From assembly GCA_018882795.1 (NCBI GenBank), contig VERJ01000005.1, positions 1-64,000 of the forward strand: DNA of 64,000 nucleotides, in the 5' to 3' direction. This document shows positions 5,885 through 43,578 of this stretch, in pieces; position 1 is the first letter of the stretch; each line of letters begins with the position of its first letter. The DNA is from Burkholderiaceae bacterium (GTDB taxonomy: Bacteria > Pseudomonadota > Gammaproteobacteria > Burkholderiales > Burkholderiaceae_A). A program made the position numbers and the translations under genes. The notes below the pieces were generated by a model. It saw only the letters and a list, made by a program, of their open reading frames with translations, was not told where the DNA came from and did not search any database.

Positions 5885-6523
5885 TCAGGGCCGCAGCACG
5901 CTCATGCCAGGAGGTGGTTTGTACTGAAACAACTGGGGATTGATTTCGATGTTTTTCAAAATACGGTGCAATTCAACCTTGGTGACTTGGCCCAGGCTGT
6001 CATGAATCTCAAAGCGACTGATCATGGAATCCGCATCCAGACCAACCATCAGCCGGACGATACCCGGCTCAGGCTTTTTGGGCATCACGACAATCCAAGT
6101 CACACCATCGCGTTCGCCCGCATGTGAGAACTGATAACGCTCCATCAACTGATCATGGGTCAATACACTGGTATTGAGTAACAGCGCGGCAATGCCAGAA
6201 AGGTTGGCGGCATCCACAGGCCGCACAGAGGCCTGGAAAAGATCGATATCGACCATCCAGAATTCGCGGGTGTTGAGAATTTGCAGCTGCGGATAAGGCT
6301 TTTTCACTTCCCAGCGCAGCAGGCCCGGTTTCGAGACATAAAAACTTCCCGATGCGTTGCGCACGCGGGGGCCCTGGGTGCCGGTGGTCTGGGTGAAATC
6401 CGCCGACATGCTTTGCGTGGCGGCCAGGCTCTCGATCATGCGATCGATTGGATCAGCGCTCAGTGCTGTCGTTGCGTAGCCCAGGGTCAACGTCATTACC
6501 AGACGAACGAGAAATACCATCAT
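5885..6523 (-). CDS. lolA: Outer-membrane lipoprotein carrier protein LolA
   Basis: Signal peptide, then [11 protein letters not shown]...[21 protein letters not shown]; located between ftsK and rarA. Confidence 0.9.
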
Positions 6524-8916
6524 CCTTGCCCCCTAGGCACCAAAATATCCCGATTGCCATTGCTTTGCATCGGCGAAACGACACCCGCCTGCTCCATGGT
6601 CTCCAACAAGCGGGCAGCGCGGTTATAGCCAATGCGCAGATGCCGCTGCACCAAGGAAATTGATGCGCGGCGATGTTTTAGCACCACAGCCACCGCTTCA
6701 TCATAGAGTGGGTCTGACTCGCCATCGCTGCCCTCGGTCGCCAGGCCCGCAGTAAATGTGCCACCACCGCCTGAAACATCGGCGCCTTCAAGAATGCGTT
6801 CGTCGTATTGGGCCTCACCGGTCTGCTTCACCGCATTGACGACACGCATCACCTCATCGTCGGCCACAAAGGCCCCATGGACCCGCATGGGCAGGCCTGT
6901 GCCCGCAGCCAGAAACAACATATCACCCTGGCCCAGCAGGGCCTCCGCCCCCATTTGATCCAGCACCGTACGTGAATCGACTTTGCTGGACACCTGAAAC
7001 GAGATACGCGCTGGGATATTGGCCTTAATTAAACCTGTGATGACATCCACCGATGGCCGCTGGGTCGCCAGGATCAAATGAATACCGGCCGCGCGGGCTT
7101 TTTGCGCAAGCCGTGCAATCAGCTCTTCGATTTTCTTCCCTGCCACCATCATCAGATCGGCCAACTCATCAATGACGACCACGATCTGGGGTAGCGGCGA
7201 CAGTGTCGGCGCATCGGGGTCCTCGGGATTGGCAAGCGGGTCCTTAATGGGTGCGCCCTTCTTGATGGCCTCTTCCACTTTTTGATTAAAACCGGCGAGA
7301 TTGCGGGTATTGAGCTTGCTCATGGTGCGGTAGCGGCGCTCCATTTCGCCCACGCACCAATGCAACGCATTGGCGGCAAGCTTCATATCGGTCACCACCG
7401 GTGTGAGCAGATGCGGAATGCCTTCATAAATTGAGAGCTCCAGCATCTTAGGGTCAATCATGATGAGCCGCACCTGGGCTGGCGTTGATCGATACAAAAC
7501 GGAGAGCAGCATGGCATTCACGCCAACAGACTTGCCAGAGCCCGTAGTGCCGGCCACCAATAGGTGGGGCATCTTGGCCAAGTCCACCACCATGGGGGCC
7601 CCCGCGATGTCTTTGCCAAGCGCCAGAGGCAACACCCCATGGTTTTCCTGAAATGTGGTGGAGCCAATGATCTCCGAAAGACGCACCATCTGCCGCTTGG
7701 GGTTGGGGAGCTCCAGGCCCATCAGGCTCTTGCCGGGGATGGTTTCCACCACGCGAATGGAGACCAATGACAGCGCACGCGCAAGGTCCTTGGCCAGATT
7801 CACGATCTGCGAACCCTTCACGCCAAGCGCAGGCTCGATCTCATAGCGCGTGATCACTGGGCCAGGCTGCGCGCTGATGACTTTTACCTGCACACCAAAA
7901 TCAGCCAGACGGTTTTCAATCACACGGGATGTGAATTCCAGGGTCTCGGGGGCAACGGTCTCCAGTTGTGAAGAGACTTCATCAAGCAATGAGAGCGGTG
8001 GCAGCCCACCAATCGGGGCCTCCGCAAAGAGCGGTCGCTGTTTTTCCCGCTGCTTGGCCGCGATGGCTTTTTTTGATGGTTCGGGGGCAACCACAGGCTT
8101 GATCTCAATCGTCTGTTCCACCTCCCGCTGGCGGCGCTTCTCCTCCAAGGCATCGGCCCGCTCAATCGCCGCCGATTCGCCCAGCCTGCGGTCCTGCCAG
8201 GCGGTCAGGCGCTGCCGCATCCAAGCCAGCAGTGCCTCTGCTTTGCTGCCCACCGATTCGGTGACATCCAGCCAGGAGAAGCGGAAAAACAGTGCCAGTC
8301 CGGCCACGATCATGGCCAGCGCCAAGAGCGTCAGCCCGATAGCACCCAGGGCCCAATCGCCAAAGCTGCCCACCAGACTGCCCAGGGCCCCGCCCGGCAT
8401 GAAAGCGATGGGACTTGCGCCCCAGTTAATGCGTTGGGCCTCGAGGGTGCAGCTGCCGGCCAGCAGCAGACAAAAACCGATCCAGCGCAGCGGGCCCATC
8501 AGCACAAACGGAGCCTCTTCACCGCTGACCATATTCACACCCAGCCGCTGCCGCTCGCGCAGCTGACGCGCCAGCCTCCAGCTGGCGAAGGCCAGTGCGG
8601 CCGACAGCACCACAAACCAGCCCGCCGAGACCCCGAATCCAAACAACAAGGAATCGGCAGTCCAGGCGCCAAAGCGTCCCAAGAGGTTGGTGGGGGTCTG
8701 ACGAGATCCCTGCTGAAACCACCCAGCATCATCCGGTGACCAGGAGGCCAATGAAAGCAGAATCCAGACGGAAAAAGCCCCATAGCCAAGCCAACGGAGC
8801 TCCGCACCGAGTCCGGAAATTTCGGCCGAGTTCCCGGCGGTTGGTGTTCCACCGACCCTGCCGTCTGTGCCGCGGGCTTGGGATCGGGAGGCGGTTCGGC
8901 TGCTGCGGTTTACCAT
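6520..8916 (-). CDS. ftsK: DNA translocase FtsK
   Basis: ORF 6520..9090; likely start [12 protein letters not shown] at 8916. N-terminal TM segments, [50 protein letters not shown] and C-terminal gamma winged helix. Confidence 0.95.
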
Positions 8917-40551: not shown

Positions 40552-40628
40552 GCGGCTGTAGCTCAGTTGGATAGAGTACTTGGCTACGAACCAAGGGGTC
40601 GTGGGTTCGAATCCTGCCAGCCGCGCCA
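40552..40628 (+). tRNA. tRNA-Arg (anticodon ACG)
   Basis: GCGGCTG...CAGCCGC acceptor stem, CTTGG-CTACGAA-CCAAG anticodon arm, GTGGG-TTCGAAT-CCTGC T-arm, encoded GCCA 3' end. Confidence 0.97.
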
Positions 40629-40629
40629 C
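40594..40629 (+). repeat. 36-bp direct repeat, tRNA 3' end (putative attL)
   Basis: AGGGGTCGTGGGTTCGAATCCTGCCAGCCGCGCCAC, identical to 41538..41573. Confidence 0.95.
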
Positions 40630-40640
40630 ATACCTAAAAA

Positions 40641-40668
40641 AGACCAGAGAAATCTGGTCTCTTTTTTT
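40641..40668 (+). terminator. Intrinsic terminator after tRNA-Arg
   Basis: AGACCAGA-GAAA-TCTGGTCT followed by CTTTTTTT. Confidence 0.92.
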
Positions 40669-40771
40669 AGCTTGAAGCCGGAAAGCTATGGTTCGCCAGT
40701 AAGTAAGTGAACATCTCTGGCGCGAAGCACCACAAAGTGTGTCAAGCTTCCTCGACTTCTTCCCCAAGCTC

Positions 40772-41518
40772 ATGCCAATACCTTTTGATCTTGCTAATTG
40801 GGCAATCGCGGCTACGATCGTTGGCTTTTCCTACATTATTTTCGGCATTACGGCATTTGGCGCTGCCATGTTCACGGTGCCCCTGCTGTCATTGCTGTTC
40901 CCGCTAGATTTCGTATTGCCTTTGTGTGTTTTGTTGGATGTCGCCGCAGCATTGGCGCTGGGATCGCGCTTTTCAAAAGATGCGGACAAGAGCGAGCTGA
41001 AATGGATGGTGCCGTTTGCTGCAATCGGTGCCGTTGTGGGAGTGACACTGCTCGTCAATTTGCCCAGCACCGCCACCATCGGTGCCTTTGGGTTGTTCTT
41101 AACCGCTTACGCGCTGCATATTTTGCTCTCAAAAAGCATTAGAGGCACCGTTAGCAAAGGCTGGGCACCTATTGCCGGAGTAACCGGCGGCATTACCGGA
41201 ACCTTGTTTGGAGTGGGGGCTCCACCTTACGCAATTTATCTTTCCCGACGCTTGCAAGAGAAAAATCGCTTGCGAGCGACACTTTCAAACATGGTTCTGT
41301 TTTCAACCTCAATCCGAGCGATCGTATTTCTGGTGAGCGGTCTCATGCTGCTTGATCGTCTAATCGCCTTTTTATTCTTAGTGCCTTTCGGACTTATGGG
41401 GTTGTGGGTTGGAAACCGTATTCACTCTCGGCTGTCGCAGGAAGCAGTGCAGCGAATCGCTGCATTTTTAATTCTGGCCATTGGATCTTCTTTGCTATAT
41501 CGAGCATTAGCTGGGTGA
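40772..41518 (+). CDS. TauE/SafE-family sulfite exporter / UPF0721 membrane permease
   Basis: ORF 40739..41518, likely start MPIPFDLANW at 40772; multi-TM; GVTGGITGTLFGVGAPPYAIYLSRR and TLSNMVLFSTSIRAIVFLVSGLM typical of the family. Confidence 0.82.
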   Translation: MPIPFDLANWAIAATIVGFSYIIFGITAFGAAMFTVPLLSLLFPLDFVLPLCVLLDVAAALALGSRFSKDADKSELKWMVPFAAIGAVVGVTLLVNLPSTATIGAFGLFLTAYALHILLSKSIRGTVSKGWAPIAGVTGGITGTLFGVGAPPYAIYLSRRLQEKNRLRATLSNMVLFSTSIRAIVFLVSGLMLLDRLIAFLFLVPFGLMGLWVGNRIHSRLSQEAVQRIAAFLILAIGSSLLYRALAG

Positions 41519-41537
41519 TTTACCGGCCATAACCTTT

Positions 41538-41573
41538 AGGGGTCGTGGGTTCGAATCCTGCCAGCCGCGCCAC
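41538..41573 (+). repeat. 36-bp direct repeat, isolated tRNA-Arg 3' fragment (putative attR)
   Basis: Exact copy of 40594..40629 without the tRNA 5' part. Confidence 0.95.
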
Positions 41574-41578
41574 TCTCC

Positions 41579-41613
41579 AAGGGGATCAGAGAAATCTGGT
41601 CCCCTTCTTCTTT
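41579..41613 (+). terminator. Terminator-like hairpin after the tRNA 3' fragment
   Basis: AAGGGGATCAGA-GAAA-TCTGGTCCCCTT then CTTCTTT; shares core CAGAGAAATCTGGTC with the terminator at 40641. Confidence 0.75.
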
Positions 41614-41721
41614 CCTCTTGCAGCCAGAGTCCGAAAGCGAATTTCGGAGTCCCATACGGCGATTGACTGGACTCGCAACAAATAAGTTGTCATGTCTCGT
41701 CCAGAGCCTCATCTTAGTCGG

Positions 41722-42663
41722 ATGAAATTCAAAAGAATTCTCATCTGCGCGCTGGTCATGATGTGTGTCGGCTGCGCCACTGCACCGTTTTCCGCTAATG
41801 ATGTCGACTACTTTCAGCCACCGATTGTGGAATCGGCTCCGCCACTGCGGCCACTGAACAGCTACAGCCTGTACAACAACACCACTGCAGTCAATCTTGC
41901 CCAAATGCGGCCCCTCATACCGGCTTTTAACGGCAAGGGGAATCTCCTGGCAAGCTGGAATCCCCACCCCGAGGGCATCAGCAACAGGCCGACATTCGTC
42001 GTCGTGCATGGCGGCCACGGACTCACGCCCACCAATTTCGCCACCGCTCTCTGGGCTCGAAAGGAGTTAGGAGCCAATGTATTGGTACTTGATGGCTTTT
42101 GGAGCCGGGGACGCCAAGAGAACTGGCTGACGTATACAAGGTTTGGCGTAAACATGCGGGTCCTCGATGTAATCGCGGCTGGGCAATGGCTGCGGTCAAA
42201 AGGTATTGATAAGGACCGGCTGTTCATCATCGGCGATAGCCAAGGCGGTTGGACGGTGCTTCGGCTATTCACCAACGAGCCGTTTTTCATTGAGCGCGCA
42301 AAAGATCTCTATCGGGGCGGAATAAGCCTTTATCCGGTATGTACCTCCAAGGGCATCCGAGATGAGCCGATGCTCGGCCCCTACTGGGGACCCGTTATCG
42401 TATTCACTGGCGGCAAAGACACAGGCACACCACCGTCGCAATGCAGAAGCAGCGTATTTAACGATGCAATGACATGGATACATTACCCGGAAGCAACCCA
42501 TGCCTGGGATGTCAGCAATCGCGGCGCCCATACGCCTGCAGTCGATGGGCAATGTGGCAGTGCGCTGAATGTCTATAACCACTTTCCTATCTGCCGCTCC
42601 GATAAGCGGACAGAGGAAATGAGGGCAAGCATCAAGGAATTTCTCAAGCGTATCGAGAAATGA
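41722..42663 (+). CDS. Alpha/beta hydrolase (dienelactone hydrolase-like), probable lipoprotein
   Basis: Start MKFKRILICALVMMCVGCATAP at 41722 (lipobox-like CVGC); FVVVHGGHG, nucleophile elbow IIGDSQGGW, late His ATHAWD. Confidence 0.8.
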   Translation: MKFKRILICALVMMCVGCATAPFSANDVDYFQPPIVESAPPLRPLNSYSLYNNTTAVNLAQMRPLIPAFNGKGNLLASWNPHPEGISNRPTFVVVHGGHGLTPTNFATALWARKELGANVLVLDGFWSRGRQENWLTYTRFGVNMRVLDVIAAGQWLRSKGIDKDRLFIIGDSQGGWTVLRLFTNEPFFIERAKDLYRGGISLYPVCTSKGIRDEPMLGPYWGPVIVFTGGKDTGTPPSQCRSSVFNDAMTWIHYPEATHAWDVSNRGAHTPAVDGQCGSALNVYNHFPICRSDKRTEEMRASIKEFLKRIEK

Positions 42664-42717
42664 AGCCAGGCGTCGATGCGCCGCAGTCCAGCCAACTGAA
42701 AACCTTGCTCAGATCCT

Positions 42718-43578
42718 CTAAATCTCGAAAGCTTCGACCTTGCCTGTCTTCACGATTTTGCCGATAGCAGCCATCACCTCCTGCTCCTTACCGCGGAAGC
42801 CATGCTCAGTGAAAGCATTACAGGCATCCCCGGAAAAACCGCTGCCTCCAGTGACAGTCACCAACGGCAGGTCAAACTTGCCGGAGATCTTCTTGGCATC
42901 AGACCACGTTGTCAGAACGCAAGGATCATTTTTGTGATGAACAAAAATCTGCGGAATGCCAGACTTCCGATAGTCGAAGTCGCGAAGCTCACGATAGCTG
43001 TTTGGGGCATAGGGGTTGGTAATCGATGCTGTATGAATTGCGCCGAGATAGGCCTGGGGCGCGTAAGTGGGCATGAAGGAGGACGAAATCGTGCCCATGC
43101 TGGTCCCAATCAGCCAAACGCCCTGAATCGATGGATGGCGGCTTCGGACCTCATTGATGAGTTTCTGTACATGGGCCTGTCGCTCTGCCGAGGCCTGATA
43201 ACTGCTTGAGCAGTAATCCCCACTCTCTGAATGGCAGTCGACCGTCAACAGGGCAATGGTGTCATCAGCCAGATGCCTACGTGCGCGAATCAGAAAGTTT
43301 CCCGACAGTCTGGATTTGGTCATGACACCGTTTTCCACCGTAGGTCGAAACACCGATGGATATCCCGGTAACAGGACTGCAAGCCGGGAATGGCCACTTG
43401 AGCCGATCTTGATCGAGAGCAAGCCGACCTGCTTCGCACCATTTTCAAGACTGACGCCAACCAGTTCTTCCCGAAGCCCCTCGGCGTGGGCAGGCACACC
43501 CTGGGCTTGAACAGTTCCGGAAAACGTTAATCCAGCAAAGAAAAGGTAGCAGGGAAGAATTACTCGTCTAGGCCTCAT
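42718..43578 (-). CDS. Exported alpha/beta hydrolase-like protein
   Basis: Signal peptide ending VQAQG; LIGTSMGTISSSF nucleophile-elbow-like motif; C-terminal TEHGF. Confidence 0.7.
   Translation of the reverse strand: MRPRRVILPCYLFFAGLTFSGTVQAQGVPAHAEGLREELVGVSLENGAKQVGLLSIKIGSSGHSRLAVLLPGYPSVFRPTVENGVMTKSRLSGNFLIRARRHLADDTIALLTVDCHSESGDYCSSSYQASAERQAHVQKLINEVRSRHPSIQGVWLIGTSMGTISSSFMPTYAPQAYLGAIHTASITNPYAPNSYRELRDFDYRKSGIPQIFVHHKNDPCVLTTWSDAKKISGKFDLPLVTVTGGSGFSGDACNAFTEHGFRGKEQEVMAAIGKIVKTGKVEAFEI

Follow-up and report, generated by a model that had tools for sequence, protein, structure and literature searches.

Islands integrated at tRNA genes, as catalogued by Islander, have an intact tRNA at one end and a displaced 3′ fragment at the other, and crossovers of the T-loop/junction class are common among them (PMC4383910). 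Cis-mobilizable elements (CIMEs) are defined as having kept both attachment (att) sites, attL and attR, and lost their integration and transfer genes (PMC5704250). In aquatic bacteria, additive flexible genomic islands hold strain-specific cargo by a tRNA, with direct repeats of the tRNA end (PMC10872708; PMC7771536). One such island (fGI-2) of freshwater Ca. Methylopumilus, with tRNA-Lys-end repeats, ranges from 330 bp to 42 kb and from 1 to 63 coding sequences (PMC10872708), and cassettes of Ca. Actinomarinales are recognised by tRNA-fragment repeats (PMC7771536). Here, we describe a locus in a Burkholderiaceae bacterium (GCA_018882795.1) where the end of a tRNA-Arg(ACG) gene recurs downstream and brackets a single TauE/SafE-family permease gene. 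It lies in the first 64,000 nt of contig VERJ01000005.1, the whole stretch analysed and hereafter the window. We consider it highly probable that att-bounded DNA carrying TauE integrated site-specifically at this tRNA.

The locus resembles Islander islands in having an intact tRNA at one end and a same-orientation 3′ fragment of the same tRNA at the other. Unlike them, it has no recombinase between the repeats, where TauE is the only open reading frame (ORF), and Islander would not list it because an integrase gene within the element is required. It shares with CIMEs the possession of attL and attR and the lack of integration and transfer genes, but consists of one gene, and no related integrative and conjugative or integrative and mobilizable element was identified at tRNA-Arg. 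In contrast to the aquatic islands, there is one insert here; its repeat measures 36 bp, it has a terminator of its own, and both the host lineage and the tRNA, Arg(ACG), are different. The best reading is of an att-bounded remnant or cassette, either CIME-like or at the one-gene end of the additive islands. This is an ordinary, already known kind of gene acquisition in an unusually small and well-bounded form. It shows cleanly, with congeners to polarise the change, how a small-genome bacterium gains one transporter gene at a tRNA. Moreover, integrase-less inserts are probably undercounted, because searches that demand an integrase, such as Islander, omit them.

The repeat and the congener comparison

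All features with coordinates below lie on the forward (+) strand. The intact tRNA-Arg(ACG) gene (40552..40628; ARAGORN; Rfam RF00005, 64.8 bits) is syntenic in congeners. Its last 35 nt plus one base (C) form a repeat that is exact at 36/36 positions, with a proximal copy (attL) at 40594..40629 and a distal copy (attR) at 41538..41573, spaced 944 bp apart. The first-pass annotation, which had reported this repeat and read it as an integration footprint, placed it correctly. Chance can be excluded, because no other place in the window matches at more than 22/36 positions; about 4e-12 exact 36-mer pairs would be expected by chance in 64 kb. A third copy was looked for in the window and not found. 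At the distal copy, no alignment to the tRNA 5′ half was obtained and no trace of it is left. Between the TauE stop codon and the distal copy are 19 bp. We also considered an eroded anticodon-loop att site there and rejected it, as the preceding 19 bp resemble the tRNA only at chance level.

After both copies comes a hairpin whose tail is rich in T, and these terminator hairpins (40642-40667 and 41584-41609) form a second repeat. The hairpins, in which a shared core had been noted, agree at 22 of 26 positions (85% identical), and both fold well (z-scores of −5.2 and −3.4). The proximal terminator, GACCAGAGAAATCTGGTC followed by T7 (40641..40667), differs from the ancestral flank. The distal terminator, AAGGGGATCAGAGAAATCTGGTCCCCTT (41579..41606), matches the one adjoining the tRNA in four congeners (G003, G006, G005, and G001), shifted 944 bp downstream.

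To polarise the locus, we compared six congeners (G001-G006), five of which are assembled past the tRNA. The order of a response regulator followed by tRNA-Arg is kept in 6/6. In all five that could be followed further, the tRNA 3′ end occurs once and TauE is absent from the locus, nearby genes being otherwise syntenic; the repeat of the tRNA end was found only in the insert-bearing genome (G000). Conservation of TauE and the second repeat across the clade, named earlier as grounds for rejecting integration, was thus not seen. The 75 nt past the distal copy strongly matched the post-tRNA DNA of G006 (z 19.8) and G003 (z 15.9), where similarity runs on beyond the terminator. This match was weaker in G005 (z 7.8) and G001 (z 6.3) and missing in G002. 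By contrast, the proximal flank reached z-scores of 5.2 and 2.6 against G006 and G003, and 5.2 or less overall. Therefore, the original tRNA end and terminator survive as the distal copy and the hairpin behind it, and ~40630 to 41537 was inserted. The locus is an insertion rather than the ancestral state, relatives retain the uninterrupted single-copy site, and the proximal terminator and TauE are inserted DNA. The insert has a G+C content of 49.3%, vs. 57.3% for the window, and falls below all sampled 908-bp window stretches. No near-identical copy was found among 399 genomes of the order, the best matches (66-74%) lying within TauE. Nor was a similar insert found in plasmids or phages, where, among the matches listed, all were to the tRNA part.

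These comparisons also bear on the possibility of a decayed tandem tRNA-Arg, in which a tandem duplication of the tRNA plus terminator was followed by entry of TauE between the copies, which removed the 5′ half of the second one. Complete tandem tRNA-Arg(ACG) genes are common elsewhere in the order (G287, G369, G164, G365, G341, G344, and G256), several with similar terminators, and such a duplication would account for the core common to both terminators in the window. Still, it would require several events instead of one and a 5′ half that vanished entirely, and each of the five congeners with sequence beyond the tRNA has a single copy. Furthermore, the 36 bp are identical yet the adjoining spacers have diverged, and it is the distal flank that is ancestral to the tRNA. 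We therefore regard this history, which the first-pass annotation had also raised, as unlikely.

It seems highly improbable that the locus is an assembly artefact, with TauE and a piece of tRNA originating at a different place or in a different strain and joined at the 36-bp repeat. In favour of an artefact, the assembly is a draft in 85 contigs, and tRNA ends can be break points, as contigs of G004 and G011 end inside tRNA-Arg.

Probable integration at tRNA-Arg(ACG) without a resident integrase

We propose that the TauE/SafE gene, alone or with others, arrived on a circle of DNA that also had a terminator and a 3′ tRNA-Arg attP and that recombined site-specifically into the 3′ part of tRNA-Arg(ACG). 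With its incoming end, this circle would have completed the tRNA again and given it a new terminator. As the congener comparison shows, the original 3′ end and terminator were displaced downstream, where they now mark attR. The catalyst was presumably a tyrosine integrase that acted on the T-arm/acceptor part of the tRNA. The crossover was likely 3′ of the anticodon loop, given that the repeat starts at tRNA position 43.

The bracketed DNA had been described as a single permease gene free of recombinases, and one PF01925 ORF is indeed all that it holds. When the search was extended to the whole assembly (99.8% complete), as had been suggested, only XerC and XerD exceeded the Phage_integrase cut-off for tyrosine recombinases, and no serine resolvase was found. 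The integrase could have disappeared when deletion reduced a larger element to a CIME-like remnant, which persisted for the sake of its permease. Alternatively, a phage or island that targets the same tRNA could have provided the integrase in trans. The original formulation, an eroded island or a minimal cassette, is a fair statement of these alternatives, between which the data do not choose; we slightly prefer the remnant. We think it improbable that the 944 bp still form a mobile one-gene cassette, with the layout attP-terminator-gene, on which integrases of tRNA-Arg-using phages or islands act in trans. If true, the unit would be a single-gene counterpart, at tRNA genes, of integron cassettes.

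An integrase might also have been dispensable. Campbell-type RecA recombination of a non-replicating circle carrying a piece of tRNA-Arg would give an identical end product and account for both the absent integrase and a repeat boundary unlike att sites seen elsewhere. From general knowledge, however, 36 bp is a very short homology for RecA. Recombination of this kind would also have no reason to land at a tRNA 3′ end, the typical target of tyrosine integrases (PMC4383910), and we consider it very unlikely.

Site-specific integration at the same tRNA was evident elsewhere. Six IMG/VR contigs hold the last 45-54 nt of tRNA-Arg(ACG) without the rest of the gene. The terminator hairpin directly follows the att core in 6/6, and a tyrosine-recombinase-like gene adjoins it in 4/6 (that of L163 being confirmed by Pfam). 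Among cellular genomes, G028 has a 45-kb island bounded by a complete tRNA-Arg, next to which an integrase lies, and by a 49-nt fragment; G124 has a similar insert of 14 kb, and G062 one of 8.3 kb with an integrase. A 3.6-kb insert in G125 (L186:1734-5429), between a complete tRNA-Arg and a 46-nt fragment, carries HNH and GIY-YIG/NUMOD-like genes; no tyrosine recombinase was found in it, making it a second integrase-less case. Similar hairpins at both island ends occur in G124 and, less so, in G125. A hairpin would follow each copy in the window because the terminator is element-borne, and the locus thus illustrates how elements using tRNA-Arg(ACG) supply a terminator of their own when they restore the tRNA 3′ end.

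Several observations weigh against integration as we propose it. The repeat in the window starts at tRNA position 43, whereas the viral att sites (n = 6) start at 24-33 and the islands of G028, G062, G124, and G125 at 26-33, in or before the anticodon loop. Because their repeats reach this loop, the integrases seen elsewhere are not obviously responsible, and they are relatives in strategy rather than demonstrated agents. In addition, no integrase, phage, or mobility gene ties the insert to a parent element, the insert is carried by one genome only, and the terminators' common core would also be expected from tandem tRNA duplication.

Close tRNA-Arg pairs in seven other genomes were also considered as inserts and were set aside as complete tandem genes. 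Separately, G055 holds two tRNA-Arg 3′ fragments (L169:3618-3672 and 6498-6546), 2.9 kb apart and some 480 kb from its complete tRNA-Arg.

The TauE/SafE gene

The sole cargo gene (40772..41518) encodes a TauE/SafE-family permease of 248 aa, whose match to Pfam PF01925 (E-values of 5e-27 to 6e-27; 95.3-95.5 bits) is well above the curated cut-off of 32.6. The start is likely ATG 40772 rather than the in-frame GTG 40739 (259 aa), because relatives begin near the former. From general knowledge of the family, we take the protein to be a probable exporter of sulfite or an organosulfonate. A sigma-70-like promoter for the gene was looked for and not found.

The nearest relatives of TauE are about 55-66% identical and belong to uncultured Betaproteobacteria, in many of which the gene stands after two genes that we read, from their sequence, as PilT/PilU-like. 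In a phylogenetic tree, TauE from the window pairs with a protein of G013 (support 100/98; 63% identical), which belongs to another genus of the same family and has its TauE in a different, non-tRNA context. Because of this pairing, the gene likely came from a donor within or near the family. Within the genus, only distant TauE paralogues (29-33% identical) occur, at other places. No tRNA-Arg fragment was found at the TauE loci of other Betaproteobacteria within the DNA fetched, and a search of viral contigs found no TauE relative.

The variable interval after tRNA-Arg

The interval after tRNA-Arg varies among congeners, in line with the strain-variable cargo of additive flexible genomic islands. 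In L031-L035, it contains a ParD-type antitoxin pair and a pirin (G006), MarR, flavodoxin-like, and pirin genes (G003), a BrnTA toxin-antitoxin (G001), a flavin mononucleotide (FMN)-binding gene (G005), or nothing (G002). In the congeners, it is a hot spot without further tRNA repeats.

Just past the displaced terminator in the window, a hydrolase-like gene (41692-42663) has no close congener counterpart, its best match in the family being 42% (G009). Together with the gene at 42718-43578, it parts the tRNA from an FMN-binding gene, and 41692-43578 is possibly an older accretion. In G005, the FMN-binding gene directly follows the tRNA terminator.
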